The position numbers and the translations under genes are program-made. A DNA stretch of 64,000 nucleotides from Pseudomonas sp. ISL-84 (GTDB lineage Bacteria; Bacillota; Bacilli; Bacillales; Cytobacillaceae). Positions 21,955 to 54,008 of the stretch are shown here, one piece after another. The DNA is taken from positions 62,001 through 126,000 of the forward strand of contig JAGGRA010000005.1 in the NCBI GenBank assembly GCA_018613035.1. The letters run 5' to 3'. Within the stretch, counting starts at the first letter, position 1, and every line of letters begins with the position of its first letter. The notes below the pieces were generated by a model. The model did no database searches and had not been told where the DNA came from. It saw only the letters and a list, made by a program, of their open reading frames with translations.

Positions 21955-21974
21955 TATTTATGATACGGTTCACC
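21955..21974. other. Attachment site, left end (att core)
   Basis: TATTTATGATACGGTTCACC at 21955-21974 matches 53944-53963 at 19 of 20 bases in the same orientation. On the minus strand it would encode GEPYHK and then a TAA stop (with the base at 21954), so it is a duplicate of the rlmH 3' end, as expected for integration into that gene end. Confidence 0.85.
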
Positions 21975-22008
21975 GTGGTTATTTAAGAGGCAAAAAAATA
22001 AAAAATTT

Positions 22009-22034
22009 GAGCTTGGGATGCCAAGCTCTTTTTT
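22009..22034 (+). terminator. Terminator just inside the left end of the element
   Basis: GAGCTTGG and CCAAGCTC form a perfect 8-bp stem with a 4-nt loop, followed by six T. No rightward gene precedes it here. In the excised circle it would lie about 20 bp after the stop of the recombinase gene that begins at 52290. Confidence 0.9.
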
Positions 22035-22128
22035 CTACTACAATTCTAAAACCTACTTATTAAAGAATCTATGATATCAACCTCAATTAGAGATAAAGGT
22101 GAGTACAAGGGTTAAAAGATTTATGTTG

Positions 22129-22566
22129 TTATTTTCTATAGTCTTCATACGGTAAACCATCTTCATCGTAATCATCCCAATCACATTGAGTACTTAATTC
22201 CTCTTTACTTTTCTCTTCTTTCAAATCATATAAATCATCTTTTAATAAATCATCATTATAAGGCTCGTCTCTTTCATAATCTTCATAAGGCACGCCATTT
22301 TCATCATAACCATCCCAAACACTGCGAGAATCTAGATAATCCTCATTATCATAAACGTGAGTATTTTTAGGAGCAGCCCTAAAAGTTGCATCTTCCTTTT
22401 CACGTTCTTTTCTTTGTTTTTCTAGGTACTCAAGTCGTTCATTTGCTTTTTTATTTAGTTCCTCTAAGTCTGTATTGATATGCAGTTCTACTACGTATAT
22501 ACTTTTTGGATAATGAAAATTCGGTTTCGGTCTAAGAGGTTGTAAAGGATTATCATTTCTTTCCAC
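22129..22566 (-). CDS. Acidic protein with repeated W-D-x-Y-D-E-x-G motif
   Basis: I do not recognise the family. The 145-aa protein has a Pro-rich start, a charged coiled-coil-like middle (LEELNKKANERLEYLEKQRK) and a very acidic tail. That tail carries two copies of one unit, VWDGYDENGVPYEDYERD and CDWDDYDEDGLPYEDYRK. The unit contains a D-x-D-x-x-G spacing reminiscent of a calcium-binding loop, though this is only a resemblance. The start is GTG with a weak ribosome site. It is the leftmost gene of the element, on the same strand as the replication genes. Confidence 0.6.
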   Translation of the reverse strand: MERNDNPLQPLRPKPNFHYPKSIYVVELHINTDLEELNKKANERLEYLEKQRKEREKEDATFRAAPKNTHVYDNEDYLDSRSVWDGYDENGVPYEDYERDEPYNDDLLKDDLYDLKEEKSKEELSTQCDWDDYDEDGLPYEDYRK

Positions 22567-22689
22567 TCTTTCCAGCTTAGCATATACTTTTATATTTTTT
22601 TTTCATTAAATCATGTATTGCATGTTTGTACGAACCTTCTCTAGCAAGGTCTGATTCAACATTTTTCACTAATGGTAAATAACCAAGTT

Positions 22690-22980
22690 TTAGATTAGTT
22701 TTATCAGTTCCAACTCTTGACTGAGATACTCTCGTAATCTTTCTACCGTTGCTGGATTTGTATCATATTTGGAACTATTGAATGGAGGCATGTTATAATC
22801 GCAAACTAATTTGATTGGTTCATCAATAGTTAGTGTTTCAAAGATACGTTCAGTATCTGGAGTAACTTCTTCTGAAAAAATATGATCAGCGTTATACCAT
22901 GCATTTAATTTTCTTTGAGTAAATCTTTTATTAGCTTCTTCTTGTTTGTCTTGAATATAGCTAAAAATGGATTTCAACAT
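22690..22980 (-). CDS. Hypothetical protein (96 aa)
   Basis: A small hydrophilic protein with no recognised domain, beginning MLKSIFSYIQDKQEEANKRF. I chose the ATG at 22980, which has aaggag upstream, though 12 nt away; a TTG further upstream overlaps that site. Beyond its stop, a second frame stays open to 22577 and encodes a protein-like tail (LGYLPLVKNVESDLAREG...). That tail has no start codon of its own, so the gene may be frameshifted and originally about 150 residues long. Confidence 0.5.
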   Translation of the reverse strand: MLKSIFSYIQDKQEEANKRFTQRKLNAWYNADHIFSEEVTPDTERIFETLTIDEPIKLVCDYNMPPFNSSKYDTNPATVERLREYLSQELELIKLI

Positions 22981-23080
22981 TATCTTGAGATTCTCCTTAT
23001 ATATCAATATTAGTGTCCCCTAGAATATGCTAATTTATATTCTAGAAATTAACTTAGTGAACAAATGAAAAATAAGCAAT

Positions 23081-24274: not shown

Positions 24275-25582
24275 CTACTTTTTTGCCAAATCTAAAAACG
24301 TCCCGGTATCTTTAAGAAATGATAACTCTATAGCACCTACTGGCCCATTCCTATGTTTAGCAACGTTTACCTCAATTTTATTCTTGCTGTCACTGTTTCG
24401 ATTATAATAATCATCTCGGTGTAGTAACAAGATGACATCTGCATCTTGTTCAATATTTCCTGAGTCCTTTAAATCGCTCATAAATGGTCGTTTATCAATC
24501 CGATTTTCAACATTACGATTTAGCTGGCTTAATAAAACGATGGGAATATTCAACTCTTTTGCAAGAAGCTTAAGTTCACGTGTTATCTCTCCTATTCGCA
24601 AATCATGTCTATTTATAGTAAGATCGGTTTTTATCAATTGGAGATAATCAATAATGACAAGACAATCCTTGTTAGGTTCTTTCCAAAGTTGGCTCCTTAT
24701 ATTAAGACTAATATCATATATTGATTGACTAGACTTATTGTCATTGTCATTAATAATCATATCCCATTTATCAATGATTCCTAAAGCTTGTTCTGCGCGT
24801 TCATGTTCATCTTTGGTTAATAAATCTCCACCTTGACGCAATAGCATTAAATCTACTCTCGCTAATGAACTTACCATTCTATAAATTAATTGTTTCTTAG
24901 GCATTTCAAGCGAGAAATAAATTACCTTTACATTATTTTTACAAGCATTCATTGCAAAGTTAAGCGCAAGTGCTGTCTTCCCCACAGATGGGCGTGCTGC
25001 TAAAATAATCAAGTCTCCATTTTGGAGCCCATCAGTCATTGTATTAAAATCTTTAAAACCAGTATCTATGCCACTAAGACCAGATCTTGGATTGACTATT
25101 TCATTATAGATTTCGGATATAACTTCCTGATTAGTAGTGTCTGTACTGTTTTCTTCAACAATTAATTCATTTAAGTTTTTAATTAATTTGGGGAGTAAAT
25201 CAACGCTGGGATTTTTTTCAAATAAATTACATAATTTCAAAGATTTTCTGATCATAAAAGCTCTTCTCACTAGTTGTTGGTGAAACTTAAAAGTTACAAG
25301 ACTCGGCACTGATATAGCAAGTTCCGTTAAATAACTCACACCTCCAATTCTTTCTCTTGATATGTCATCCATGTTTGAAATGATTGATACAATATCAACC
25401 GGATCCTTTTTGGTATTTAAATCTATCATTGTTTCAAAAATAATTTGATGCTTTTCCATATAAAATTCAAATGGTTTTAGAAATACTTCTTTTACTAAGT
25501 TCCCTTCCATCAGAATACTTCCTAAAACAGATTGTTCAGCTTCTATATTAATTACTTCATTTTGATTCGTCGCCTGTAACAT
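24275..25582 (-). CDS. DnaB-like replicative DNA helicase
   Basis: The 435-aa protein has the DnaB N-terminal domain (EQSVLGSILMEGNL...) and the RecA-like helicase core. The Walker A is ARPSVGKTALALNFA (about residue 193), then the YFSLEMP motif, Walker B LVIIDYLQLI (about 308), and LSQLNRNVENR. DnaB unwinds DNA at the fork as a hexamer. It is the last gene of a three-gene operon with a helicase-loader-like protein (26-bp overlap) and a replisome organiser, the set used by phages such as SPP1 (G38P, G39P, G40P). This points to element-specific replication, probably after excision. The chromosomal dnaB is elsewhere. Confidence 0.93.
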   Translation of the reverse strand: MLQATNQNEVINIEAEQSVLGSILMEGNLVKEVFLKPFEFYMEKHQIIFETMIDLNTKKDPVDIVSIISNMDDISRERIGGVSYLTELAISVPSLVTFKFHQQLVRRAFMIRKSLKLCNLFEKNPSVDLLPKLIKNLNELIVEENSTDTTNQEVISEIYNEIVNPRSGLSGIDTGFKDFNTMTDGLQNGDLIILAARPSVGKTALALNFAMNACKNNVKVIYFSLEMPKKQLIYRMVSSLARVDLMLLRQGGDLLTKDEHERAEQALGIIDKWDMIINDNDNKSSQSIYDISLNIRSQLWKEPNKDCLVIIDYLQLIKTDLTINRHDLRIGEITRELKLLAKELNIPIVLLSQLNRNVENRIDKRPFMSDLKDSGNIEQDADVILLLHRDDYYNRNSDSKNKIEVNVAKHRNGPVGAIELSFLKDTGTFLDLAKK

Positions 25583-25832
25583 TTAAATGTTTCTTCCTTT
25601 CTTCAATTTTTTTCAAGAAAGTATTTTCGGGTTTGCAGGTAACCTGAATTTGACTTAAAGTTGGTGGATATTGGCTGGAATAAACATGCTGCCTTAATTT
25701 ATATAGCACCGGACCATAAGGCATTTTCATTAGATGCTCAATCCAGTAATTAAACTTATCCTCTGTAACATCAAAGTTTTGATAAGCGGATACAATCTCT
25801 TTAAAAATAAGAATAGCTTCTTGTTCAGTCAT
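25557..25832 (-). CDS. Phage-type helicase loader-like protein (91 aa)
   Basis: The protein begins MTEQEAILIFKEIVSAYQNFDV and continues with PPTLSQIQV, the pattern of SPP1 G39P-like helicase loader/inhibitor proteins, which bind the DnaB-type helicase and deliver it to the origin. It overlaps the start of the dnaB-like gene by 26 bp and abuts the replisome organiser gene, which supports translational coupling and the same job. The C-terminal half is basic and probably flexible. The assignment rests on pattern and context. Confidence 0.75.
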   Translation of the reverse strand: MTEQEAILIFKEIVSAYQNFDVTEDKFNYWIEHLMKMPYGPVLYKLRQHVYSSQYPPTLSQIQVTCKPENTFLKKIEERKKHLNVTGDESK

Positions 25833-26342
25833 TTATTTTTCACTTCCTAAACTTCTTTTTTTGATTAATACATCTAAAATAGCTTCATTTTTATAAGATT
25901 TAGAAGGCTTATTACCTTTTTTTAATTTCTTTTCTTTTTTATTTGTGGATAATCGTTGGTCAACTTCTGGACGGATTTCGGACAACTGCTGGTCAATCTT
26001 GTTGTACATACTCCATTTATTAATTGTAATAATGCTAAATTTGTTTGTTGAATGGATAGAAATATAATTATTAGATTCAAATAATTTCAACCATCTCCAC
26101 AAAGTCCTGCCACTTACCTGATACTTTTTTTGCATATCACGATTAAATTCATTTTCTAGAGAATCCCTGCCTGTAACAAATTGTCCAGCCTCTAAGTTCA
26201 CTAATTGGTTATCAATCATTATTTCTCGTTCTTTATACGAAGCCTTCATCAAACATAAGAGCCATAGACGGAGTTTCCACGGATCTTGCCAAACTGCATT
26301 ACTCGTCAGCTTTCGGTAAAGCTTTACATAACCTTCATTCAT
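25833..26342 (-). CDS. Replisome organiser-like DNA-binding protein
   Basis: The 169-aa protein starts NEGYVKLYRKLTSNAVWQD, the typical N-terminus of phage replisome organisers and DnaD-like replication proteins. A winged-helix region follows (VTGRDSLENEF..., VSGRTLWRWLKLFE), and the tail is very basic (KKEKKLKKGNK). Such proteins bind the origin and recruit the helicase loader and helicase. It is the first gene of the operon; the origin could lie within it or in the AT-rich 440 bp upstream. Ribosome site aaagga before the ATG. Confidence 0.82.
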   Translation of the reverse strand: MNEGYVKLYRKLTSNAVWQDPWKLRLWLLCLMKASYKEREIMIDNQLVNLEAGQFVTGRDSLENEFNRDMQKKYQVSGRTLWRWLKLFESNNYISIHSTNKFSIITINKWSMYNKIDQQLSEIRPEVDQRLSTNKKEKKLKKGNKPSKSYKNEAILDVLIKKRSLGSEK

Positions 26343-27819: not shown

Positions 27820-27987
27820 TTTTTCATTTTGTATCTACTGACCTGTAACTTTTCTATAATTGTAAACAAACAACTATCTGCCCACATTTTAAATCTGCTA
27901 TTTAAACTATTCCTGAGTATAAAAAAATATAATAGCTCCAATAATTAATATCTATAAAAATGATATTAATGGGTGGTGCTATTTAAA

Positions 27988-29475
27988 ATGAAAGTAAAAT
28001 ATGATGTCGACATCAAATATGCTCAAGTAGAACAGTTATATAAAGAAGGAAAATCTTGCACAAAAATAGGAGAAATATTAGGATTGAACCGAAAGAAAGT
28101 ATCAAAATATTTGCAGGAAGAACTAGGTTATAAGGTTAGAGTTATTGCAGGAAATCACAACAAAGAAGAGATTCACAAAAAGTACCTTGAAGGAGAACAA
28201 TTATTCATAGATGGTATGTCAATAAATAGAATTTCAAAGCATTTAAAGATACATAAGAAAAGTTTTTCTAATTGGCTGCAGGTGGAAAGAGGACATACTG
28301 TTAAACCTAAAAGAGGATTAACAATCGAAGAAAAAGTTAACCAAAAGAACAAAATGGAGTATGCCGAACGGCTTATAAAAGAAGGTCATTCCTTTCATTT
28401 TGCTGTTAAAAAAACTAAAGTAAATTACTATAAATTTAAAAATCATTTAAAGGAAAAAGGATATGAACTGTCTTTTTTAGATAGAAAATATAATATATCA
28501 GAGAATATCTTTGAAAATATCGATACAGAAGAAAATGCATACTGGCTAGGGCTGCTATATGCAGATGCTTATGTAACAAATGATTGCAGGTACGTTTTAG
28601 AGCTTTGTTTAAAAGCTGAGGACTTAAATCATCTAATTAAATTCAGAGAATTTATGAAATCTGATCACCCGATAGTTCCTAAAGAAGTGAAATTAGGAGA
28701 TAAAATATATAGAGCCTATAGATTTTCAATTTATAGTAAAAAGCTTGTTCTAGACTTAATAAAGCAAGGGTGTTTACCTCGAAAATCATTAATACTGAAA
28801 TTCCCTTCATCAACTATTGTCCCAGAAAATTTAGTTAGACATTTTTTGCGGGGGTATTGGGATGGAGATGGAACGATTAGCTTTACTAAACTAAAACAAC
28901 ATGGGTATAAATATTGTTCAATGAGTGTAATATCTACAACAGAATTTGTTGAGAAAATTAGAAACACTTTAGACTTACCGAAAGTTAAGTTGAACCCACA
29001 AGGTAATGCCTATTCTTTGAGATATACCGGGGCTAATTTCCCAAGTAAGATCTTAGACTTCATTTATCAAGATGCATCAATTTATCTTCCACGAAAGTAT
29101 GCTCACTATAAAAGTTTCTTATCTGCTAGGATCAAATTTGAAAAGAAACTAAGTGAACAAAAGGAACACAGGGTCTCAACATTAAATAAAGCTATAAATT
29201 TATTTAATAATGGGAAGTCAATTAGAGAGATAAGTACTATATTAAAATTTGAACGTGCTATGATATCAAGCTGGTTAAACTTAAACGGGATTAACGTACG
29301 GCTAAGTAGACCCTTTTCAAAAGAAGAATTAGCTATTCAAAAGCTAAGATTGTCACAGGGTGAAGAATTTTATCAAAAATACAATTCTGTATCAAAGGCC
29401 TCCAAATTAGCGAGCATTAATTACCATAGATTAAAGCTGTATTTAATTCAAAAGGGATACCCTTTGGAATTTTGA
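27988..29475 (+). CDS. LAGLIDADG endonuclease-like protein with HTH repeats
   Basis: The 495-aa protein has three HTH units at the N-terminus (KSCTKIGEILGLNRKKVSKY, MSINRISKHLKIHKKSFSNW, and a third near residue 130). A central LAGLIDADG-type core (about 175-385) follows, with the two motifs WLGLLYADAYV and FLRGYWDGDGTI, and then two more HTH units. The acidic residues ending both LAGLIDADG helices are kept, so nuclease activity is possible. The gene is free-standing, not an intron or intein. It may be a homing-type endonuclease or a site-specific regulator. I chose the ATG at 27988 after gggtgg. Its own terminator follows. Confidence 0.82.
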   Translation: MKVKYDVDIKYAQVEQLYKEGKSCTKIGEILGLNRKKVSKYLQEELGYKVRVIAGNHNKEEIHKKYLEGEQLFIDGMSINRISKHLKIHKKSFSNWLQVERGHTVKPKRGLTIEEKVNQKNKMEYAERLIKEGHSFHFAVKKTKVNYYKFKNHLKEKGYELSFLDRKYNISENIFENIDTEENAYWLGLLYADAYVTNDCRYVLELCLKAEDLNHLIKFREFMKSDHPIVPKEVKLGDKIYRAYRFSIYSKKLVLDLIKQGCLPRKSLILKFPSSTIVPENLVRHFLRGYWDGDGTISFTKLKQHGYKYCSMSVISTTEFVEKIRNTLDLPKVKLNPQGNAYSLRYTGANFPSKILDFIYQDASIYLPRKYAHYKSFLSARIKFEKKLSEQKEHRVSTLNKAINLFNNGKSIREISTILKFERAMISSWLNLNGINVRLSRPFSKEELAIQKLRLSQGEEFYQKYNSVSKASKLASINYHRLKLYLIQKGYPLEF

Positions 29476-30448: not shown

Positions 30449-30658
30449 ATGGACTTCCACAAACTGATGCTTTATGTAAATATACTTGGCATATGTCTGC
30501 CTGTTGCATTAACCTATTTAGTTATTGCTAGTATCATTACTGGACAACAAGTTTTTCCCTTAACAATAGTGGGGCTTGCTTTTGGCTATGCTATCATGAT
30601 CAAACGAAATGTATTGTTTCAGGAACTATTGAATAAATGGTTTAAAAAGGATAAGTAA
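30449..30658 (+). CDS. Small membrane protein (69 aa)
   Basis: The protein has two predicted membrane helices (about residues 7-30, LYVNILGICLPVALTYLVIAS, and 37-55) and a short basic tail (NKWFKKDK). It has no recognised family. The ribosome site aggaaggtg precedes the ATG by about 9 nt. It probably shares a transcript with the zinc-ribbon gene upstream. Confidence 0.6.
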   Translation: MDFHKLMLYVNILGICLPVALTYLVIASIITGQQVFPLTIVGLAFGYAIMIKRNVLFQELLNKWFKKDK

Positions 30659-35000: not shown

Positions 35001-35261
35001 TTGAGAGTATCTCTCGTCTGTTTTCAAAATATAATATTGTAGGTAATGTTGCAGACGATCTGGATTAAAGTTAGAATCCTCCTGATGAATCTTTTCCAAT
35101 TGTTCCAACTGATACTGCTCCAAATATCTATCAAAATACTTGTTTGTACTCCTACCGATTGATTCAACCAAATACAGGTCATCATCAATTTGCTCACAAT
35201 TTTTGATCTCCACAATCTCTGGCCAAAAAGGACCTTTAATAATTTCTCCGACCTTTAACAA
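32085..35261 (-). CDS. SNF2-family helicase of the BREX operon (BrxHII-like)
   Basis: The 1058-aa protein has a complete SNF2-type motor: Walker A LLADDPGAGKT (about residue 120), DEAH box in LVIVDEAHKMA (about 222), LLLTATPHKGD (about 265), and helicase C motif GRIHRIGQ (about 570). A long coiled C-terminal region follows. It takes the place where type 1 BREX has brxL. SNF2 helicases called BrxHII occur in BREX types 3 and 5, and DrmD of DISARM is similar, so a DNA-translocating role in phage exclusion is likely. The TTG start follows ggagggg by 7 nt. A hairpin lies between it and pglZ. Confidence 0.85.
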   Translation of the reverse strand: MLKVGEIIKGPFWPEIVEIKNCEQIDDDLYLVESIGRSTNKYFDRYLEQYQLEQLEKIHQEDSNFNPDRLQHYLQYYILKTDERYSQSRARGNKKIIPLPHQIEAVYSRMLQSPQVRYLLADDPGAGKTIMSGMLIRELLARQSAERILILVPPLVLKQWQEELKDKFGEDFTIVTRSLLNNSNEINPFEAYDKVISSVYWASREEIKSLILKTQFDLVIVDEAHKMAAYTHGVKKKKIQRTKMYQLGEALLRHTEHCLLLTATPHKGDKENFRHLMSLVDHDIFSRLNSGESMYEKSNPFVIRRLKESMVNFNGTPLFPKRTTKTISFELSLEEQELYEEVTEYVREHFNRAKQNNKPNVAFAMMILQRRLSSSLDAIYLSLLRRKERLEAVLYNQQQFQQVDSEDFEDLSEDEQEELEMQLEGETETLNLEELQLEIDVLGRLVEKANWIRQQDVERKYIELEQTLFGKNGLLAKEEKILIFTESKDTLYYLEKKLLAHVPEIAKIVGNFSMDQRRSEVEKFRNELQIMLATDAGGESINLQFCNQMINYDIPWNPNRLEQRMGRIHRIGQKNEVFIFNLVASNTREGDVLVRLLEKMEQMRNDLGQELVYDFIGDVLKEQGVDLSDLMEQAISGRENLDELIARMEKTLSEEHKRLLELAKQERMDEESFDLPGMRRAYQEISINSLPSRVYSEFVVTQFEETRIRLHLSSDETIGRIDRFPKNIRELAKKRGIPLNSDESIRFTLSTRKETEETPLLQNDHPLYKLALELASTEVQQVAIPACRVKANVNERVTVELDQVSIVDGTGRELERSLMLLGKRESGEWIQIDPFCLFTEPFEVIDTNGIEKDTSFKREAIMQARRLLQGVQMKRDDYVNKKSVYLRKSFEEQMTTLQNRFFQYEQNNFDNKNSALINQTYTQIEDLEERSRERLDDIERERSIQLQPIKRIAQLVLEPTIQTGRVIPEDVFQKVKEYEYQNGRLNIQKRNAFGLIDFTSEGQKEEIRFIIVTESLSSLLEEFPYDDYIGIEPFVYIYVVKNGEIQEEIQLEKTYKLL

Positions 35262-35285
35262 CGATTAACCCCTCCCTATGGAAAA

Positions 35286-35313: not shown

Positions 35314-35321
35314 TCTAACTT

Positions 35322-37954: not shown

Positions 37955-37983
37955 TACTAATACTTTGAAATTAATAATCCTTG

Positions 37984-41511: not shown

Positions 41512-41536
41512 CTTCCATTACTCCTTCTATAAATAA

Positions 41537-41559
41537 AAACAGGTCTTAAAGACCCGTTT
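41537..41559 (-). terminator. Terminator-like hairpin between brxC and pglX
   Basis: AAACAGGTC and GACCCGTTT pair with one mismatch around a 5-nt loop; on the leftward strand TTTAT follows. It is the first of three such hairpins inside the BREX operon. Confidence 0.6.
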
Positions 41560-41563
41560 CTAT

Positions 41564-44500: not shown

Positions 44501-45133
44501 TTCAATAAGCGCTTGAACAATTTTTTTACGGCGTATGACTGCCTTTAATCGAAAATCTTCCCATTCTGTATCATATAGACGCTTAATGATGTCTTTGAAT
44601 GCTCCGTATTTTCCTTCTTCATCTAACTGACGCTCCATATCAGCAAGCCACAACGTATCTGAATAGCCTAAATGACGATTAAAAACACGCAGAAATACTT
44701 CTACAATACGTTCCTTGTTGGTTGCTCCTGATGAACTCATAGAATCAATATTGAATAGAATGGCATCTGAATCTTTTCCATCTACTTCTTTCATCCTTGA
44801 TAATAAAATTTGATTGGAGGTTTTCTCAATAAAGTATTCGTATGGTTTTCTGCCATTCACTTCTTTTCCATCAAGCAAATAAGATAAAATTTTTAAAAAA
44901 TGTGATTTACCTGAGCCGAAGAAACCACTAATCCAAACCCCAATATCTTTTGTTGGATTCTTATAAACTGCTATATAGTTTTCATAGAACTTTTGAAAGT
45001 ATTCGGTCACCTCTTCAGTCATGACATACTCTTCAAGTTCATTTTTAATTGTATCTTGATCCAGCTGGCCCGCTTGAACTACGCCATTAATGGTCCGAAA
45101 TATATCTTTCTTGAATATATCTTTCACTTGCAT
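41564..45133 (-). CDS. brxC: BREX P-loop ATPase BrxC
   Basis: The 1189-aa protein has a Walker A SGFFGSGKSHFLK near residue 68 and a Walker B VFLVDEVGQY near 252. Long helical and coiled-coil regions follow, and the tail is basic. It matches BrxC (PglY-like, DUF6079/COG1672 type), the large ATPase of BREX. It probably assembles with BrxB and PglZ on DNA. Length agrees with BrxC of type 1 systems (about 1200). It starts 14 bp after brxB with a good ribosome site. Only one brxC gene is present, whereas type 5 BREX has two. Confidence 0.95.
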   Translation of the reverse strand: MQVKDIFKKDIFRTINGVVQAGQLDQDTIKNELEEYVMTEEVTEYFQKFYENYIAVYKNPTKDIGVWISGFFGSGKSHFLKILSYLLDGKEVNGRKPYEYFIEKTSNQILLSRMKEVDGKDSDAILFNIDSMSSSGATNKERIVEVFLRVFNRHLGYSDTLWLADMERQLDEEGKYGAFKDIIKRLYDTEWEDFRLKAVIRRKKIVQALIETGYDEETANSFFEISKNTFSMTSEKLSQLIAEYCRHRGQDYRLVFLVDEVGQYIGTDVNLMLNLQTVVEDIGGTSMGQAWVIVTSQEKIKAVANIHSTNDFSKIQGRFATRINLSSANTDEVIKRRILEKTDTADKTLKMTYEPIEQIVRNRLSFDPNTTQFRSGYRSAEEFAALYPFIPYQVDLLQKVFNKIRIHGEGGTSLAHGERSLLKAFQEAAKLNAGEQIGNLVTLEEFFPSIRNFLETSITRTISRAEDRARNIENILPEDIPVLKVLYLIKGIDEIKATPNNIATLILETINNDKNDLPVKESLNRLEQAMFIEKHADGTYSFLSDEEQEINKEIRSVEVNSTKIKEQLGKLFFSKMYPKLNYIYRKDTPPFDFNKRFDNYSKGNMSYPLTLQVFSVNMSDMEAALKANSGQMVICLDEELVAAAEAAIKYSEQVQRYVNLKRNNSTTQTQHRIYDAKLVSVEEFEQKAEELLKKACDKALFYIQGQQRSYKGSFENQVSSAFNMLISNTYKYLDYMDVPVSFKTYKESWKKLAEQVIDYETMNNRKAFDELKEYLEDVARMHEKPPSIKSIIEKYHAIPYGWSEYDIIGLILAHMNAGKVKLFLGDDKFTPENSKFYDRLARVSEREKIRVIPEIEVDLKIRRGFISLMRHFFSRSEVGDTYQDFAIAAEAELKERFQSPLEEIRLKRQSQRSRNYPYPGEREINSLSMGVQKLLQIRDAEQMVKEFINAEEEIDEWFGVLEKLKGFYNKTPITVFNEAVEILERYQRDLALIQNTDVQLIKKQISDILTKQEPYRDIPRLPQLTSQLEENIKNEVNEQRQAIQVQVGHMETNLMELKDYYQNIPSIVGYIENEYNIFYRIKSSILTEGSLVTIRALLQQLNEIAFRIEKRAKELEEELRKPPVVEPDDKKIPVVIREKKSKRLSSNEIYRIFFNGRNKIETQQDLDEALNQLRSALLKELKDHTLEID

Positions 45134-45147
45134 TTGGTTCTCCCCCT

Positions 45148-45693
45148 CTACGAAATTCGTGATAATTGATACTGATCTTCATTATGTAAAATACCAAAAA
45201 GTCTAAGCTCCAAACCGGTAAAGTATCCGGGATAGAAAAGAACAATGGGTTTTCGGAAAGCATGGTTGGACAGCTTTTTTAGTAACTGACTGGATCTAAG
45301 AAGGGGATGCGCATTGCCAACACCTGTTATGAATACAATTTCTGCATCATCTACTTGATCGATAAAAGACTCAACAATAACATCTTGATCTTCTAATACT
45401 GTTTGTAAGGCATGTACTAACTCTTCATATCCCTCTTCTTCACTAATCTCTATTAGTTCATTTAAATCGTCTTCAAAGAGACTGAGTAAGAATTTAAACA
45501 AATGAAGCTCCTTAATCTCTATTGAAGTTCGATTCAAAACCCCTTCAACGTATGTGCGAACAACTAGTTCATCCTCTGCCGGATAATCGAATACATAGTG
45601 CGGAATTTCACTGCCAATCCCTGTAGGTCTCGTAAAGCCTTCTTCATTTATTCTTCTTTCCATTTGTTTTAAGCGCTCATATGTGTCACTCAT
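45148..45693 (-). CDS. brxB: BREX protein BrxB (DUF1788)
   Basis: A 181-aa protein of the DUF1788 family: early ERLKQMERRINEEGF, middle VFDYPAEDELVVRTYVEGV, and the conserved FITGVGNAHPLLRSSQLL with PIVLFYPG near the end. BrxB is a core, non-enzymatic BREX component that associates with other BREX proteins. It sits between brxA (11-bp gap) and brxC (14-bp gap), the normal order. Confidence 0.93.
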   Translation of the reverse strand: MSDTYERLKQMERRINEEGFTRPTGIGSEIPHYVFDYPAEDELVVRTYVEGVLNRTSIEIKELHLFKFLLSLFEDDLNELIEISEEEGYEELVHALQTVLEDQDVIVESFIDQVDDAEIVFITGVGNAHPLLRSSQLLKKLSNHAFRKPIVLFYPGYFTGLELRLFGILHNEDQYQLSRIS

Positions 45694-45704
45694 GTCTTTT
45701 TCAC

Positions 45705-46298
45705 CTACCTTAACTCGCTTAATAAATACAGCAACGGATCATAATCCTTAGCATAATTTTTTAGATTTTTGCTTATATGTAAAGGATTAATTAGAAATGT
45801 ATCTGCTTTTTCCTCCTGCAGCATTCCACTTTCTCTAAAGAACATTACTATTGAACTTTTTAACCTTTTTTTCGTTTCAGGCCTGAACCCAGCAACTTTT
45901 CCAGATTGTCCTTCTTTACGTTCAATAAAGAACTCAACATCTATAATCTGAATAGACGGCTTGTTATTATGATAATTGTACAAAATAACCTCATTAAAAA
46001 ATTCATAAGGTAGCCGGTAGCATTTTAAATAGCTATATAAAAGGAGGGCTTTTTGATCTAAACGGGAGCCATCTATATATAGCTTTGATAATTCAAGGTT
46101 AAATGTTTCAGAACGACGATATACCATTTGAAATCTCTTCTTAATACTAGACTCGCTTCTTAATTGAAACGAATTATGTTCAATAATTCTTTCTAAAATT
46201 TCACTTCTTGATAAACCTGCAATTTTCAATGGAAGAACAATATTTATTTCATTTTGAAACCAGCCTTCGCTGGTGAAACCTGCTGAATATTCCATCAT
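45705..46298 (-). CDS. brxA: BREX protein BrxA (DUF1819)
   Basis: A 197-aa DUF1819 protein: YSAGFTSEGWFQNEINIVLPL at the start, then an HTH-like helical fold (SRSEILERIIEHNSFQLRSESS) with SIKKRFQMVYRRSE. BrxA is a small DNA-binding protein related to NusB-like folds and is the first gene of most type 1 operons. The start is one of two adjacent ATG codons (46298 or 46295). The ribosome site ggaagg is far upstream, so translation initiation may be weak. It leads the leftward BREX operon, with a LexA-like box about 185 bp upstream. Confidence 0.93.
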   Translation of the reverse strand: MMEYSAGFTSEGWFQNEINIVLPLKIAGLSRSEILERIIEHNSFQLRSESSIKKRFQMVYRRSETFNLELSKLYIDGSRLDQKALLLYSYLKCYRLPYEFFNEVILYNYHNNKPSIQIIDVEFFIERKEGQSGKVAGFRPETKKRLKSSIVMFFRESGMLQEEKADTFLINPLHISKNLKNYAKDYDPLLYLLSELR

Positions 46299-46533: not shown

Positions 46534-47112
46534 TTAAACCTTTGTTATAATTTTCTCTGCCTCACTTTTCTTCTTAGCCCTAACCAGTGTAGATACCGAA
46601 ATCCCTGTCATACCTTCAACTTGTTTATACGAATGGTCTTCTAGTAAGGATAAGGCATGATTAACCTGCTGCCTTGAAAACTTTTTTGGTCTACCCTCTC
46701 GGAAATCAGGATTCTGCTTGGCCAATATTTTCCCTTCTTGAGTACGCTCTACAATCATATCTCTCTCAAACTCAGCAAAAGCAGAGAATATCGTGAAAAT
46801 TAACCTCCCAGTGGGGGTATTTTCAATCACACCCATATTTAAAACGTGAACTTTAATATTTCGATTAAATAAGTCTTTAATTGTTTCCAAAGCATCTTGT
46901 GTACTTCGGGCCAAACGATCTAGTTTAGTTACGACCAATGTGTCACCTTCTTTTAGATTTTCCATAAGCTTTTGAAATTCTGGCCGTTTTTTATTTGTCC
47001 CTGAATACTTTTCAGAATATATTACATCACAGTTCTCTTTTTCTAATTGTTTTAGCTGAACTTGTAAATCCTGATGAATTGTACTCACTCTTGCATACCC
47101 ATATTTCAACAT
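46534..47112 (-). CDS. Serine resolvase/invertase (small serine recombinase)
   Basis: The 192-aa protein has the resolvase catalytic domain with [13 protein letters not shown] (catalytic Ser about residue 9), the LDRLARS motif, [16 protein letters not shown], and a C-terminal HTH ([15 protein letters not shown]... [12 protein letters not shown]). It cuts and rejoins DNA at short res or inversion sites. I chose the ATG at 47112, after gaggtg, because it gives the normal N-terminus; an upstream start adds eight residues. It ends about 235 bp before brxA on the same strand and could help resolve multimers of the element or shuffle nearby DNA. Confidence 0.9.
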
Positions 47113-47480
47113 AGTCACCTCTTTAGTTAAATGCAAGATTCATTTATGAATATAAGTATTGATTATGCTTAATACCCTTATTTTACAGTACCTGTAATGT
47201 ATGTTCAATACTTTGAAGTTATGACTATATCATACCAAGGTTTAAAATTTGTTAAATACCATTTTGGATATAAAAAAGCCTAATTTCTACATTAAAATTG
47301 AGAAATTAGGCTTTTTTATATCCATTAAAGTCCCCGAGTGTTTTTACCGTTATTTTAGTACAGCACCGATAAGAAAATAAATAGAATTTCTTTTCGGTTA
47401 TATCCGATATTATTAAGGGAATATACAAGAAGCTTAAAACCATCTGTATTAGAAATAAGGTACCACCAATTCGGTAGTAT
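47113..47480. other. Intergenic region with a long perfect hairpin
   Basis: Apart from the hairpin at 47266-47323, I see no gene. The promoter and any res site of the serine resolvase should be here, but no clear paired sites are visible. Confidence 0.4.
47266..47323. repeat. Perfect 23-bp inverted repeat
   Basis: Positions 47266-47288 are the exact reverse complement of 47301-47323, with a 12-nt loop. The stem includes GCC-TAATTTCT with A and T runs on either side, so it can act as a bidirectional terminator. 23 uninterrupted pairs is longer than every other hairpin in the window. Confidence 0.85.
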
Positions 47481-48539
47481 TTATTTTTTTTTAGATCGCA
47501 TCATATATTTTTCAGCATGAGGTCTAATTGGGCCTGCCATATGCAAAGGCAATGACATATTTATAAAGTTCCTGTTTAATTTAAAAAATGGCAAATTAAT
47601 TTTCTCAGAGACTTTTCTTGGTGAATATCCTATTATCTTATTATCTTCTGGACCTAGCACAGTAATTTCTTTCTCTAATTCACTATTAGAATGTCTGGTA
47701 CTCTTAATGATTTTATTAATATATGTTAAGTGTACCTTATCATTAAAAAAGATGGTATTATAAGAATTTAAATATATTAGCTTGTTAATTTCATCTAATT
47801 GCTTGCCTTTATATACTTCAATTATTCCTTCTTTATTTTCAAAGAAATCATATAAAATATGGTCAAAAATACAAATACAAAGTTTTGGAGAAATAGGAAA
47901 AAATAATTGAAGTCCCATATTTGCAAGTCCATATCCTCTAATTTTATATTGTCTTTGAACATACATTTGATTATATCTCACAAGAGGATTGTCAGAAGTT
48001 ATAAAATGCCTCTCACTCTTACTAACCATTAAAATTGCTTTTAAATCCATTATTATTGGATAAGTCTCTGCTATAGCCCTTATTGAATATAGATTAGGTA
48101 TATTGAAACTTATCTTTGACTTTTCAATCGCTTCTATAGGTACTTTAAAGCTTTTATTCTTGTTTGCTTTCATCTTTAGGGAAATTTTTGCTTGCTTATC
48201 AATTAAATTATTAAATGAATCTGCCATCTTCAAATTTCTTGCTTCACACAATAATATAAATAATATTAGCAACGAATATTCTTGACTATTTTTATTCGGT
48301 ATTTGTTCAGTAGCAATTATGTTTTTAATTATTTTTGAACATTCATTTTCGAGATCCATAAACATATCTTCAATAGTTCCATCGTCCCCATAAAGATAGT
48401 CTTTACAGGCTTGTTTTTTAATTGAAGCCTCTTTAACATATCTTTTATTTCCTATATTGTACATACCAATGCTTTTTTTATTATTAGAAAAATTCTTTAA
48501 ATAAAATTGTGGAACAAAGTGATTACTAACTTTTTGCAT
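47481..48539 (-). CDS. DUF4238-domain protein (352 aa)
   Basis: The N-terminal NHFVPQFYLKNFSNN block and later SDNPLVRYN and FFPISPKLCICI segments define the DUF4238 family. These proteins are of unknown biochemical role. The conserved H-x-x-P-x-x-Y-L start suggests a metal- or nucleotide-binding site, but that is speculation. The gene is monocistronic, leftward, and next to BREX and a resolvase inside the element; its AT-rich composition matches the other accessory genes. A defence or toxin-like role is plausible but not shown. Confidence 0.82.
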   Translation of the reverse strand: MQKVSNHFVPQFYLKNFSNNKKSIGMYNIGNKRYVKEASIKKQACKDYLYGDDGTIEDMFMDLENECSKIIKNIIATEQIPNKNSQEYSLLILFILLCEARNLKMADSFNNLIDKQAKISLKMKANKNKSFKVPIEAIEKSKISFNIPNLYSIRAIAETYPIIMDLKAILMVSKSERHFITSDNPLVRYNQMYVQRQYKIRGYGLANMGLQLFFPISPKLCICIFDHILYDFFENKEGIIEVYKGKQLDEINKLIYLNSYNTIFFNDKVHLTYINKIIKSTRHSNSELEKEITVLGPEDNKIIGYSPRKVSEKINLPFFKLNRNFINMSLPLHMAGPIRPHAEKYMMRSKKK

Positions 48540-48841: not shown

Positions 48842-49012
48842 ATGAATAGAAATATAAATTTTGATTATACAAGTCATTATGAATCCGTTTTACTCACTAA
48901 GGATGAAATAGGCAAAGTAAAGGCCGCAGAATTTATAAACTTTTTCTCTGATTTAGTACTTAAATATCATGATGATATTGAAAAGAAAAATATGGATGTG
49001 AAAAGAAAATGA
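48842..49012 (+). CDS. 56-aa protein coupled to a large serine recombinase
   Basis: An ATG ORF preceded by gaggg at 8 nt spacing. Its stop TGA overlaps the ATG of the recombinase at 49009 (ATGA), the classical layout for translational coupling. The product is a charged helical peptide (NRNINFDYTSHYESVLLTKDEIGKVKAAEFINFFSD..., read in parts). It has no known domain. The tight coupling suggests a partner of the recombinase, for example a directionality factor; this is inferred. Confidence 0.55.
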   Translation: MNRNINFDYTSHYESVLLTKDEIGKVKAAEFINFFSDLVLKYHDDIEKKNMDVKRK

Positions 49013-50520
49013 AAAAGACAAAGGCGCTTGTATATGTACGTGTTAGTACTGATAAACAAGCTGATAATACATCTATTCCAAAGCAAATTGAAGAATTAGA
49101 AGAATATTGTGATGCACACGGGTTTGATATAGTTTGTGCCTATAAAGAAGAGGCGTCAGCTAAAGATATTGACGGTAGAGAAGAATTTAAAAAGATGTAT
49201 AAATACTATATGGAAAATGAAGATATTGAATATATGATTGTGTTTAAATTAGATCGTTTATTTAGAAACTTTCTAGATTCTATTTTCTTTTGGGATCAAA
49301 TAAAGAGAGCAAATAAGCATTTTATTTCACTTACGGATAATATAAATACCAAAGATCCAAATGCTAAAATGATGTTTTTGGTAAATGCTTTGAAAGCAGA
49401 TATGGAAAGGGAAGATATCGCTTTTAGAACAAACTTTGGAATGGAAAAGAAGGCTGCTGCTGGTTATTTTAACGGCGGGAAAGTATTTGGTTATGAATCC
49501 GTTAGTAAGCGTCTTAGGGTTATACCAGAGGAAGCAGCGGTGATAGAATACATTTTTAATAAATACGTTTATGAACAATGGGGTTATAAAAAAATAGCAA
49601 GCAACTTAAACCTCCAAGGATTTAAGACAAAAAGAAATAATGACTGGACCATTAATGCTGTCAAAACCATATTAGAAAATAAAATCTACATTGGCTTTAT
49701 CAAATGGAGAAACGAATATACAAAGGGACAGCATGAACCTATTATTTCTAAAGAACTTTGGAATAAAGCACAGGAGCTTAAAGCGAAGAAATCCTATACA
49801 CCGACTAAGGTACATCCGGGAACCTTTCCACTTTCAGGGTTATTGAAGTGTCCTCAATGTGGTTCTTCAATGGTTCAGGGGAATAGTAGTGAAAAGTATA
49901 AGTATTACCAGTGTAATAAAAACAAGAATAGTGGAAGAAAAGCTTGCTCTGCAAATCTAATATCAAAGGAATACGCAGATGAGGCTGTACTTGCTAATCT
50001 AATTACCTATCTTGATAAACTAAATTTATCGTCATTACTGTTTACAATTATAAAATCCAATCTAGAAAGTAATCTTAAGTCCCTAGGCGATGAAGTCAAT
50101 TTATTAAATAAATCATTAAAATCTATACGTGAAAAAATAAAAAATGCTGCAGATCTCTTTTTGGGCAATGATAATGATTCTAATCAAAATAATAACAGTA
50201 CATTTTACTATCTCATTGGAGAATATGAAAAGGAAGAGGAAGATACTTTATCTCGATTAAATAAATTAAGTAAGGAAATTAACCTGCAAAACAACTTAAA
50301 TATCAAAAATAATATTGAATATGTAGCTAACCATTTAAAAGATTTTATAAATATAATTTCCGAAGAAGAAAAGAAGTTATTATTTCACAGTATTATTAAA
50401 GAGGTGCATGTTACAAATGGACCAAAACCAAAAGATAGATTAATTAAAAACGTAATCTTTCACTTTACTGAAGATGAATTTAATGAGTATGGTCTATCTT
50501 TAAGGCATGCTAGTTGCTAA
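49009..50520 (+). CDS. Large serine recombinase (503 aa)
   Basis: The protein has an N-terminal resolvase domain with VYVRVSTDKQADNTS (catalytic Ser about residue 14) and KLDRLFRN, and then a recombinase domain (GGKVFGYESVSKR...). A zinc ribbon (CPQCGSSMVQG... CNKNKNSGRKACSA) and a coiled coil follow. It is complete and is the second large recombinase of the element. It may work with, or independently of, the one at 52290. It is translationally coupled to a 56-aa ORF. Catalytic-domain similarity places it with phage or SCC-type integrases. No own attachment repeat has been found. Confidence 0.92.
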   Translation: MKKTKALVYVRVSTDKQADNTSIPKQIEELEEYCDAHGFDIVCAYKEEASAKDIDGREEFKKMYKYYMENEDIEYMIVFKLDRLFRNFLDSIFFWDQIKRANKHFISLTDNINTKDPNAKMMFLVNALKADMEREDIAFRTNFGMEKKAAAGYFNGGKVFGYESVSKRLRVIPEEAAVIEYIFNKYVYEQWGYKKIASNLNLQGFKTKRNNDWTINAVKTILENKIYIGFIKWRNEYTKGQHEPIISKELWNKAQELKAKKSYTPTKVHPGTFPLSGLLKCPQCGSSMVQGNSSEKYKYYQCNKNKNSGRKACSANLISKEYADEAVLANLITYLDKLNLSSLLFTIIKSNLESNLKSLGDEVNLLNKSLKSIREKIKNAADLFLGNDNDSNQNNNSTFYYLIGEYEKEEEDTLSRLNKLSKEINLQNNLNIKNNIEYVANHLKDFINIISEEEKKLLFHSIIKEVHVTNGPKPKDRLIKNVIFHFTEDEFNEYGLSLRHASC

Positions 50521-50635: not shown

Positions 50636-51631
50636 TTACAGTTCAGGTTTGACTAATATTATTTCATTAGGTTTAAGGCCAGTCCGAGTGTATAACTCAG
50701 GTATTTTTTCTCCTTCTAGCCCCGCTAAAATTAAAGCAAGCTTCCCTTGTTCAAAGGCATTTTGTACGGATTTTCCGAAGGCAATAGCAGAATAAAACTG
50801 TGCAGCGAATTCTCTTGCAGCATCATCGTAGACGGCTTCATTCATACCTATTGCACAGTCAATGTGTTCCGTTACAGCTTCTGCTTGTCCACTTGAAAAA
50901 CAGTTATTAAAAATAACGAGTTTAATTGAATCAGACATTGTCTTCATTAATAGGGTAACCGCCTCTTTAGATAGAAGACTTGTAGACCCTTCCGTCGTTT
51001 CTAGTACAATATCATGGTCTGGAGAACCGTGACCACTAAAATGAATTATATGGGGTTTTACTTCGTTTATAGCTTGTAAAATATCATTGGAACGTACTGC
51101 CCATCGAGATTGTAAATTGATTGAATCCCGGTATTCAGAAGCACGAATCTTTTCGTGTATGAGACGAATTTCTTGATCTAATCTTAATGAACTTTGGTCA
51201 ATAGGATTGGATGCTAAGAATAGAACGTTTATTTTTTCTGGAAGTGATTCGAAGTTAATTGAAATGGGATTGGAAGATATTTCTTGGCTAATTCTTTGTT
51301 GTTTTTTTAACTCATCTGTAATAGCTTTTGTATGTCTTAACTCAGCAGTTTTATTCTTCTTTAATTCTCTATCTTCTGAGCGCCGTAATTGATCTAACGC
51401 TTGATTTAAAGATTTAATTTTATTAGCTTTTTTTCCTTTAAGGTCACCTATTTTTTTTTGGGTATTAATCAGTTCTCTTTGTTTAGAATTAAGAGTCGAG
51501 GTACTTTTTGTACTCTGTATAGTTTTTAATGCTTTTGCCAACTTTTCTTGCTCTTTACCTATATCCTTTTCAATATTAGCAATCTCCTTTTCTAAACCCT
51601 GAACTTTGTTCCGATACATTGTAGCACTCAT
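50636..51631 (-). CDS. CHAT-domain (caspase-like) protease with coiled coil
   Basis: The 331-aa protein has an N-terminal coiled coil (about residues 1-115, LEKEIANIEKDIGKEQEKLA) and a CHAT cysteine protease domain. That domain has INVLFLASNP, the catalytic His in HFSGHGSPDH (about residue 197) and the catalytic Cys in VIFNNCFSSGQ (about 241). CHAT proteases are death-type effectors in several bacterial defence systems, where activation leads to cleavage of cell proteins. The ATG at 51631 follows aaagggg. It lies downstream of, and on the same strand as, a DUF1883 gene, which I propose is its partner. Substrates and trigger are unknown. Confidence 0.85.
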   Translation of the reverse strand: MSATMYRNKVQGLEKEIANIEKDIGKEQEKLAKALKTIQSTKSTSTLNSKQRELINTQKKIGDLKGKKANKIKSLNQALDQLRRSEDRELKKNKTAELRHTKAITDELKKQQRISQEISSNPISINFESLPEKINVLFLASNPIDQSSLRLDQEIRLIHEKIRASEYRDSINLQSRWAVRSNDILQAINEVKPHIIHFSGHGSPDHDIVLETTEGSTSLLSKEAVTLLMKTMSDSIKLVIFNNCFSSGQAEAVTEHIDCAIGMNEAVYDDAAREFAAQFYSAIAFGKSVQNAFEQGKLALILAGLEGEKIPELYTRTGLKPNEIILVKPEL

Positions 51632-51738
51632 AATAGCCACCCCTTTACTTTGATTTTGAATATAAGTCTTCCATCTTTAGGACGAATATATTTAAAGCAA
51701 TCGCTTTTTTTGAACCGTAGTTTAAATGATAAAAGAAA

Positions 51739-51758
51739 CTACCGAAATAAATCGGTAG
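51739..51758 (-). terminator. Hairpin between DUF1883 and CHAT genes
   Basis: CTACCGA and TCGGTAG form a perfect 7-bp stem with a 6-nt loop; the leftward strand continues with a T-rich tract. It may reduce read-through from the small gene into the protease gene. Confidence 0.65.
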
Positions 51759-51774
51759 ATCAAAAAGATAAATA

Positions 51775-52014
51775 TTAATAGAATCGGTATTTGTACTGTC
51801 CTCCACCATGGACAATAAGATACCACCTTCCAGCTCCTTCGACAGAAATATTTACAGGCGTGCGAGTGTAGTGGCCGCCATAATACTTGAATTTCCGTCC
51901 AGCTTTATAGTGTTGGAAGTTGATACTATCCACCAGAAACACATCAGCAGCATGTTTCAATTGGACTTCAACTGACAAGGAATTGTTAGTGTCAGCAAAT
52001 GGAATTTGAGCCAA
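51775..52014 (-). CDS. DUF1883 protein, probable partner of the CHAT protease
   Basis: The 79-aa beta-rich protein (LAQIPFADTNNSLSVEVQ; VFLVDSINFQHYKAG; GRWYLIVHGGG) fits DUF1883. From memory this domain is also found fused to or next to TIR-domain proteins, so it probably acts as the sensing or adaptor part of immune-like systems. I chose the TTG at 52014, which follows aaggaggt by about 8 nt; the GTG at 52023 overlaps that site. It is transcribed leftward ahead of the CHAT gene with a hairpin between. Confidence 0.7.
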   Translation of the reverse strand: MAQIPFADTNNSLSVEVQLKHAADVFLVDSINFQHYKAGRKFKYYGGHYTRTPVNISVEGAGRWYLIVHGGGQYKYRFY

Positions 52015-52148
52015 GATAACCACCTCCTTAAAGAAAATTTTATCATAAATTGGAAATTAAGGGGTTATTTTGAAGAATGTCGTTCAATTAAATTAAAGAC
52101 TAATTCTTTGTTAAAGAGAAGGGAGTAGAAACTGTTACACTTAAAAAT

Positions 52149-52265
52149 ATGGGCGTTCTAATGGTAAACACGTTGACATTAAGTAGTATTCTTATGACAA
52201 TTCGTAAAGAATATGATGAAGCTATTTCAGAACCTTCATTTCTCCTTTCTAATATTTCATTGTAA
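52149..52265 (+). CDS. Possible 38-aa ORF upstream of the terminal recombinase
   Basis: An ATG ORF (MGVLMVNTLTLSSILMTIR..., ending NISL) ends 24 bp before the recombinase ATG. The ribosome site is far upstream (aagggag at about 52122). It may be a small leader peptide or chance. The product is partly hydrophobic and has no known domain. Confidence 0.25.
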   Translation: MGVLMVNTLTLSSILMTIRKEYDEAISEPSFLLSNISL

Positions 52266-52289
52266 AATCAACTTGAAGGAGGTAATGAG

Positions 52290-54008
52290 ATGGATATAAA
52301 AAAAGTAGCTATTTATGTAAGGGTAAGTACTGAAGAACAAGCCTCGGAAGGCTATAGTATTAGCGCTCAATTACAAACTCTACGACAATATGCACAACTT
52401 TATAATTGGGAAATCGTCGACGAGTATGTGGATGAAGGGATTTCTGGAAAGAATATCACCGGCCGCCCTGCTATGCAAAGACTTGTAGCAGACGTTGAAC
52501 AGGAAAAATTTCAGGCTGTACTTGTATGGAAAATATCACGTTTATCGCGGAATATGTTAGATACTCTTACTTTGTTAGACAAATTTGAAGATTACGGAGT
52601 AAAGTTTATCTCTTATTCCGAGAACTTTGATACCAGTAGTCCAATAGGCCGTCTAGTCGTTCAGCTGATGGCTTCTATTGCCGAAATGGAAAGAAATACA
52701 TTGTCTGAGAACGTTAAACTTGGTATGAAACAACGAGCCTTAGAAGGTTCATGGAATGGCGGTGTTATATTTGGTTATGATTCTATTGAAAAGGAACTCG
52801 TAAAAAACAAAGAGGAAGCTGAAGTAGTTAAACTGATATACACTCTTTATTCCCAAGGAAAAGGTTTAAAAGCCATTGCAAATCAGCTTAATAAAAATGG
52901 GTATCGAACCAAACGTGATCGTCATTTTTCTATAAATGGAGTGGCAACTATTTTAGATAACCCAGTCTATAACGGAAAAATTAGCTGGTTAAAGGTTGAA
53001 AACTGGGATAAGAAGAGAAGAAGAGGCAGAAATGATAATCCCATTTTAGTAGAAGGTCAGCATGAAGCGATTATCAATGATGAACTTTGGAGTCTTGTTC
53101 AATCTCGAAGGAAAAGTAAATCGTTCAAGCAAAGACAATCCAACGAACCGTTTCTATTGAGCAAGATTTTACGCTGTCCTGATTGCGGACAAGGGATGGT
53201 ACCTTCAATTACTACTTACACTTTAAGCGACGGTACCAAAAGAAAGCACAGATATTATGTTTGCAGTGATTTTCACAACAAGGGATCAGCAGCCTGTAAA
53301 GCCAATTCAGTTAAAGCATATGATGCTGAAAACGCTCTGTTCCAACGTATAGAGAGCTTTTTATCCAATAAAGAAAAGTTTGATGAAACTATTAACTCAC
53401 TAACAAAACACTCAATTGAATCCATAAAAAAACTTAAAGAAGAACTGGAAGAAACTGATTCAAAGTTAGAGGAAACACTAGTACTTCAGAATAGATATCT
53501 AGAAGCTTTTGAACAAAATCTTTTTCCTGTTGCGGTTTTGCAAGAACGCTTACAGCAAGTGGCTATTGAAAAGAGTGCAATTGAACAAAAGAGGAATAAT
53601 TTAATAACGGAAATAACTAAATTTGATACAAAAGTTATTCCTCCAGAATTGGTACATCTTCTCCTAGAAAAATTTGTAGAAGTCTATACGTCCTCTACTA
53701 GAGATAAACAAAAGCAATTACTACAGCTTTTGGTTAAACAGATCACCGTTGGACGAACAAATAATCATCGACGTCAAATTGATGAGGTTGAACTTGAATT
53801 TGATTTTACGGAAGTTAACCTTTCAAACACGTTTACACTTATCCACATGCTATATTTAGAAACAGAAAAAGAAGGCTTATCAACACCTTCTATCTCTGCT
53901 TCAAATGGCAAATATCCACCTTATCTTCAGATTTTTTTGCCTCTATTTATGGTACGGTTCACCCCGATTAATCCGAAATGCCCGATAAACCTGCTCCAGC
54001 AGGATTAG
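52290..54008 (+). CDS. Large serine recombinase spanning the att core (572 aa)
   Basis: A full-length large serine recombinase: catalytic Ser in [22 protein letters not shown], recombinase domain, zinc ribbon ([12 protein letters not shown]... CKANS) and coiled coil. It likely drives integration and excision of the element. Its ATG follows aaggagg at 7 nt. The reading frame crosses the att core at 53944-53963, and the last about 15 codons are antisense to rlmH. After excision the frame would instead read VVI and stop (TAA), giving about 561 residues, with a terminator 20 bp further. CcrC recombinases of SCC are about the same size (about 558 aa, from memory). Confidence 0.93.

Follow-up and report, generated by a model that had tools for sequence, protein, structure and literature searches.

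What kind of element has inserted beside rlmH in the 64,000-nucleotide stretch of DNA analyzed here (the window; contig JAGGRA010000005.1, positions 62,001 to 126,000, from a genome of 5.1 Mb in 100 contigs deposited as Pseudomonas sp. ISL-84), and how does it relate to the staphylococcal cassette chromosome (SCC)? rlmH is a conserved ribosome-modifying gene, and a preliminary description of the window had proposed that a 32-kb SCC-like element lies at its 3′ end in a Bacillaceae chromosome, a proposal that the comparisons reported here support. We take the host genus to be Cytobacillus; a genus-mate, G020, has a locus identical to one in Cytobacillus oceanisediminis 2691. The integrated element spans positions 21955 to 53963 (~32 kb), is bounded by a 20-bp direct repeat (19/20 identical), and carries two large serine recombinase (LSR) genes, LSR-A and LSR-B. 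With its site at the 3′ end of rlmH, its two attachment (att) ends, and its internal LSR, the block is very probably a cassette-chromosome-type genomic island. To judge from its recombinases, it appears to work like SCC but not to be SCC.

Ends of the element and the rlmH site

The junctions comprise the following features.

20953 to 21861, plus strand: host flank gene for a Gfo/Idh/MocA-type oxidoreductase (Pfam GFO_IDH_MocA, 1.6e-19; remnant near rlmH in the Cytobacillus relative G015)
21955 to 21974, plus strand: attL core, left repeat copy TATTTATGATACGGTTCACC (repeat search; same type of end in 12 elements)
21986 to 21999, plus strand: left inverted arm AGAGGCAAAAAAAT (arm search; AGAGGCAAAA in 12 attL ends)
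53931 to 53944, minus strand: right inverted arm AGAGGCAAAAAAAT (arm search; attR pattern in 36/36 assembled loci, at most one substitution)
53944 to 53963, plus strand: attR core, right repeat copy TATTTATGGTACGGTTCACC, end of rlmH (repeat search)
53943 to 54422, minus strand: rlmH, intact host gene (NF000985, 269.7 bits, cut-off 172; Pfam SPOUT_MTase)

A single base distinguishes the two cores, which are the sole matches in the window when up to three mismatches are allowed. No core match was obtained in any of 100 shuffles of the window (maximum, 0), and none of 150 random 20-mers from the window recurred in it at 19/20 or better, bearing out the earlier claim that the repeat bounds the block. 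The arms sit just inside both cores, in opposite orientations. As also claimed, the right repeat copy is the end of rlmH, which retains an intact 159-amino-acid reading frame and is single-copy in the window genome. Base composition shifts at the bounds as had been described, with a GC content of 0.329 inside the element versus 0.398 and 0.397 in the flanks (0.369 in the 5 kb of left flank nearest the element). On the side of rlmH away from the element lie genes for an HtrA-like protease, a response regulator, a metallo-beta-lactamase-fold protein, and a WalK-like kinase. An SCC-like motif, TATCAYATYAT, had no match in the window and is uninformative.

LSR-B relatives were gathered from the 15 loci of one scan plus 193 genomes of the same family and 397 of the same order, six of the 15 loci being the same as loci in the family/order set. 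Among the 36 LSR-B loci that were assembled, no two were near-identical and all carried the right arm and core, departing from the pattern at no more than one base; this figure is a description rather than a test because possession of LSR-B was the criterion for picking the loci. Both ends occur on one contig in 12 elements, among them that of the window, the left end fitting without substitution an attL pattern that was loosened after the first data had been seen. These complete elements lie in differing host flanks and range in size from 9.5 to 47.9 kb; in one of them, G053, LSR-B is a truncated gene of about half identity. A stricter attL pattern (at most two mismatches) matched 28 of the 193 family genomes, 10 of which have an LSR-B relative of at least 52%, and the reversed control pattern matched none. 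In another genome, G289, two element ends are naturally joined, with perfectly inverted 11-bp arms 31 bp apart around the core (DNA fold z score, −3.82) and a weak LSR-B remnant that terminates there.

The preliminary description had further expected an empty site to read Gfo/Idh gene, one core, rlmH. This order was encountered in G015, where the left-flank genes of the window from 3890 to 19035 occur in order, mostly at 82 to 98% protein identity (17976 has a partial counterpart only, and 5707 and 19798 have no clear one). They are followed by a decayed Gfo/Idh remnant, ~1.4 kb with another open reading frame (ORF), and rlmH (98%) with one core; the 32-kb block is absent between the left-flank genes and rlmH. 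The flanks are thus joined in gene order and not base for base, and no base-exact empty site was found among the genomes compared. In G016, a portion of the window's left flank is followed by other DNA ahead of rlmH.

Several rlmH regions show further arrangements. Of 17 Cytobacillus regions, 11 contain at least two rlmH-end cores inside a 20-kb span, all in the rlmH orientation and none in the opposite one, and the stacked-core regions display, by eye, several different arm motifs; the rlmH site in Cytobacillus seems to hold stacks of different cassettes. An LSR-B element in L005 (11642) has its right core outside rlmH, as is similarly the case in G197, G304, and G222. L105 (G012) has two rlmH copies a few kilobases apart (527 to 997 and 5304 to 5780, 89% and 64%) with a recombinase between them, and G004 and G013 have two copies each, ~4.8 kb apart.

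Recombinases and their relation to known cassettes

The element encodes three serine recombinases and a small ORF adjoining one of them.

52290 to 54008, plus strand: LSR-B, large serine recombinase, last codons in rlmH antisense (three domains in Pfam; NCBIfam; rlmH overlap in 28/33 genomes)
49009 to 50520, plus strand: LSR-A, large serine recombinase, putative partner of LSR-B (Pfam Resolvase, Recombinase, Zn_ribbon_recom; homologue in 9/12 complete elements)
48842 to 49012, plus strand: small ORF just before LSR-A (37 to 40% in G020, G165, G181, and G108; no Pfam or NCBIfam family)
46534 to 47136, minus strand: small serine resolvase bordering the defense slot (Pfam Resolvase, 4.7e-42; 86% in G020 and G181)

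Each LSR gene of the window has an open frame that encodes the full set of three domains, and the LSR-B frame crosses the right junction into rlmH antisense. Overlap of rlmH with LSR-B was the rule in the 33 genomes (10 family and 23 order) that have a relative of at least 60%, counting split genes and dropping the fragments in G148 and G175, and was also seen at 14 of the 15 loci of the first scan. A second recombinase lineage (~40% identity) overlaps rlmH likewise in several genomes.

We propose that the element is at times circular, with an attP in which inverted arms stand on either side of the core (TTTTTGCCTCT ... core ... AGAGGCAAAAA). Recombination of attP with the last rlmH codons would fall to LSR-B, probably partnered by LSR-A, and rlmH would stay whole because the incoming element supplies the last codon(s) and a new stop (AAATAG). 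Since the LSR-B gene spans attP, integration would replace its own final codons with sequence from across the junction, usually rlmH antisense; to judge from the attL side, the protein encoded by the circle would end in RFTVVI or a closely similar sequence. In the integrated state, the tail after RF measures 4 to 159 residues in 35 of the 36 loci (G165, where the gene stops at the end of the sequence stretch, is excluded). The tail is probably passive because its length differs so widely between hosts, and a state-dependent function for it was set aside.

Where LSR-A is found, it directly precedes LSR-B in six of nine elements. In the window and in G167, the two are separated by a CHAT and a DUF1883 gene, 98% and 99% identical between these elements. 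The window LSR-A shares 86% identity with its G167 homologue and 45 to 46% with those of G020, G165, and G181, whose LSR-B is ~95% identical to that of the window; this contrast indicates that the LSR-A part is mosaic and has been exchanged. A 298-amino-acid protein with a permuted architecture, the recombinase domain ahead of the resolvase domain, is encoded at L093 (9137 to 10033), with relatives in G165 and G181.

The best NCBIfam model for both LSRs is CcrB, at 385 bits for LSR-B and 201 for LSR-A against a cut-off of 900, and both also fall under the CcrA and CcrC cut-offs. CcrB proteins above the cut-off were present in 9 of 398 genomes of the class; six of these, presumably from Staphylococcus and each with a neighboring recombinase, were used in a phylogeny in which the CcrA label follows from gene position beside CcrB and not from score. 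After 8 near-copies or part-length rows had been dropped from the 79 proteins found, a quick IQ-TREE analysis of the remaining 71 placed LSR-B, LSR-A, CcrA, CcrB, and the second lineage in one group each, on long branches. A single clade of LSR-B and CcrB was rejected (p-AU 0.0035, on the quick tree and tested after the tree was seen). Scores and tree thus place neither the ccrA/ccrB pair nor the ccrC gene of SCC in the element. No SCC-type helicase operon immediately precedes the recombinases in the set of 20 element ORFs examined with Pfam, which does not include short ORFs such as 29524, 30186, and 51645; the DnaB-type helicase is encoded toward the opposite end of the element, at 24275 to 25582. 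The element does not appear to be SCC because LSR-B is not CcrB by score, by grouping, or by the rejected clade.

With SCC and SCCmec the element shares insertion at the 3′ end of rlmH, an rlmH left whole, direct repeats containing the last rlmH codons, one or two LSRs, and variable cargo (in part from PMC10061031 and PMC6222049). It differs in its separate recombinase lineage, in the position of LSR-B at and across the rlmH junction, in its DnaB-type replication trio, and in its BREX cargo. The preliminary description was right about the SCC site logic, but its label SCC-like should not be read as SCC, and the location outside Staphylococcaceae that it stressed is not new, since rlmH-site elements outside staphylococci are already published (PMC6222049, PMC10061031). 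The ECC of Enterococcus likewise combines the rlmH 3′ end, two LSRs, and variable cargo; its att sites span ~50 bp and contain inverted repeats in the circular form, and both the circle and its transfer were demonstrated by experiment (PMC6222049). The host family is another one, and the ECC recombinases, named ccrABEnt, are set beside LSR-A and LSR-B here by description, not by sequence (PMC6222049, which contains rlmH and has no mention of BREX). Bacillota islands with PolA-SSB primases also have LSRs, mostly the rlmH site, and restriction-modification-type cargo, with empty sites reported for the B. cereus and B. wiedmannii islands and one C. difficile island, the C. difficile islands being at ssrA; they are defined by a PolA-SSB pair plus a COG3378 or DUF927 helicase, neither of which was found in the window, and BREX had no match in the text (PMC10061031). 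A pseudo-SCC at rlmH has been described in Macrococcus (PMC6008420), and a survey of streptococcal integrative and conjugative elements (PMC4701971) has no occurrence of rlmH as a site. A literature search that left out most subscription papers and all bioRxiv preprints found no paper with both rlmH and BREX. What is new here is the separate recombinase lineage, the BREX-1-like cargo lacking BrxL, the phage-type replication trio, and sister backbones 93 to 97% identical around a slot with unrelated defense systems.

Defense cargo and a possibly exchangeable slot

The remaining annotated genes of the element are the following.

24275 to 25582, minus strand: DnaB-type replicative helicase (phrog_19, 5.8e-98; TIGR00665, 385.3 bits at a cut-off of 385.25)
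25557 to 25832, minus strand: helicase loader (phrog_2289, 2.1e-19)
25833 to 26342, minus strand: DnaD-like replication initiator or loader (phrog_2514, 2.5e-38; no Pfam family)
27973 to 29475, plus strand: helix-turn-helix plus LAGLIDADG-like endonuclease (phrog_4645 endonuclease, 1.9e-53; LAGLIDADG_3, 22.3 bits, narrowly missing the cut-off of 22.5)
30449 to 30658, plus strand: small ORF common to two sister elements (54 to 61% in G181 and G167; no Pfam or NCBIfam family)
32085 to 35261, minus strand: SNF2-type helicase, DrmD-like, in the BREX operon (PADLOC DrmD 1169 and BrxHI 371 bits; DISARM_DrmD 371.5, under the cut-off of 610)
35322 to 37829, minus strand: PglZ, BREX-1 type A (TIGR02687, 548.7 bits, cut-off 270.35)
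37984 to 41511, minus strand: PglX, BREX-1 methyltransferase (NF033452, 1403 bits, cut-off 500)
41564 to 45133, minus strand: BrxC (NF033441, 1046 bits, cut-off 400)
45148 to 45693, minus strand: BrxB (Pfam BrxB, 4.7e-27; no NCBIfam match)
45705 to 46298, minus strand: BrxA (Pfam BrxA, 9.1e-40; no NCBIfam match)
47481 to 48539, minus strand: DUF4238 protein (Pfam, 1.1e-45)
50636 to 51640, minus strand: CHAT-domain protein between LSR-A and LSR-B (Pfam CHAT, 1.5e-8; 98% in G167)
51775 to 52023, minus strand: DUF1883 protein (Pfam, 4.5e-16; 99% in G167)

The cargo named in the preliminary description is present: BREX genes, a phage-type replication trio, and, for the CHAT pair, one CHAT gene with a DUF1883 neighbor. 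The DnaD-like/loader/DnaB trio resembles the replication genes of phage SPP1 and could copy the circle. The main cargo is the BREX-1-like operon, with a predicted role in defense. As in BREX type 1, BrxC scores above the BREX cut-off and PglX and PglZ above the BREX-1 cut-offs, and with BrxA and BrxB the core set is complete in the window; unlike in BREX type 1, no BrxL was found among the 20 scanned ORFs, and a DrmD-like SNF2 helicase stands in the operon. The same set (32085 to 46298 in the window, with the helicase and no BrxL found) was observed in G181 at 48 to 73%, and the same BREX set at 46 to 57% in G012, beside its second rlmH copy. No relaxase or conjugation genes were recognized among the scanned ORFs (one large sister has a Replic_Relax protein), and because no transfer genes were recognized the element probably moves by transformation, by transduction, or with a helper.

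Over 1651 bases, the window LSR-B shares 94.8% DNA identity with its counterpart in Terrilactibacillus tamarindi and 95.5% with the one in Robertmurraya kyonggiensis, versus rlmH identities of 68.7% and 76.5% for the same pairs. To judge from these identities, the element lineage has spread between genera, and the ~95% value speaks for recent movement.

Around a slot that holds unrelated defense operons (13.8 kb in G020 and 14.9 kb in G165), the backbones of G020 and G165 match at 93 to 97% identity for ~13 kb on one flank and ~5 kb on the opposite flank; the first 9 to 15 kb of the two elements are also mostly different. The G020 cargo matches BrxF, BrxC, PglXI, PglZ, and BrxA, a set that we take to be BREX-3, and that of G165 matches SspB, C, F, G, and H. 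Six of 10 further sister proteins were matched, namely, type I restriction-modification genes in L014 (three), genes resembling TmtA and bSEFIR close to attL in G167 (two), and a PDC-S50 candidate defense gene in L006 (one); three proteins of G167 and one of L006 had no match. Together, the scans of sister cargo covered 26 different proteins, part of the total. Direct or inverted repeats flanking the slot amounted to matches of only 11 to 13 bases. In both G020 (L092, L093, L154) and G165 (L106, L155, L156), the slot lies between the Replic_Relax gene and LSR-A. A res-like dyad, TGAACAT...ATGTTCA, was noted by eye at its right edge and is partly retained in G165, where the resolvase gene is gone. 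We put forward, as a speculation that is more doubtful than probable, that the rlmH cassette is a standard carrier in whose near-identical intergeneric backbone a small resolvase and a res-like site at the right slot edge let whole defense operons (BREX-1-like, BREX-3-like, Ssp) swap, and that LSR-B, as a gene crossing its own att site, has a different C terminus when integrated and when circular.

Alternative explanations and significance

Could the block instead be a true SCC element that crossed over from Staphylococcaceae? The same site, the same last rlmH codons, serial LSR genes, and CcrB as the best NCBIfam model would fit, but the low LSR-B and LSR-A scores, the four separate groups formed by LSR-B, LSR-A, CcrA, and CcrB, the rejected clade, and the lack of an SCC-type helicase in the scanned ORFs make this origin extremely improbable. 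A degraded prophage using rlmH as its site is very unlikely too: although the replication trio is phage-like and LSR-B matches the integrase family phrog_95 (2.6e-139), no head, tail, portal, lysis, or other structural or packaging family was detected in the scanned ORFs with Pfam or PHROGs beyond short terminase-family stretches of the 27973 to 29475 endonuclease, the att arm had 0 exact matches in viral_contigs, and no LSR-B match of at least 60% occurred among plasmids or 50,697 phage records. We also doubt that two cassettes, nested or in tandem, make up the block, with LSR-A having brought one of them. The three serine recombinase genes of the block, the divergence of LSR-A in sisters that share LSR-B, and the stacked cores common in the genus would all suit such a structure, but no third core lies inside the block at up to three mismatches. 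Rather less improbable, though still unlikely, is a recombinase-driven insertion with real ends that is now immobile or fixed. The CHAT and DUF1883 genes split LSR-A from LSR-B in the window and G167, a circle has not been seen, and sister loci include split or truncated LSR-B genes; set against this are the open, three-domain frames of both window LSRs and the LSR-B identity across genera.

A number of observations weigh against the cassette-chromosome island that we favor. Eighteen of the 28 attL-positive family genomes have no LSR-B relative of at least 52% and may carry remnants or ends used by another recombinase, and one family genome that does have LSR-B, G160, has no match to the stricter attL pattern. 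In 5 of the 33 genomes, there is no rlmH within 1.5 kb of LSR-B. Three of the 12 complete elements have no LSR-A, LSR-B being truncated or split in two of these three, and the LSR-A/LSR-B pair is therefore not strictly kept. None of the 11 other complete elements matches the replication trio of the window, the large sisters having DUF3987 and Replic_Relax instead. The empty site in G015 is one of gene order only, with differing intergenic sequence, a decayed Gfo gene, and ~1.4 kb plus an ORF between. Finally, the circle and its excision are inferred, neither having been observed.

An island of the cassette-chromosome kind remains the reading that we hold with high confidence, and LSR-B, with its defined attB and attP arms, lends itself to recombination assays in the laboratory. 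Large serine recombinases of more than one lineage use the last codons of rlmH as a landing site, across many Bacillaceae and related genera, and the near-identical backbones with different defense operons provide a direct test case for the exchange of whole defense systems.

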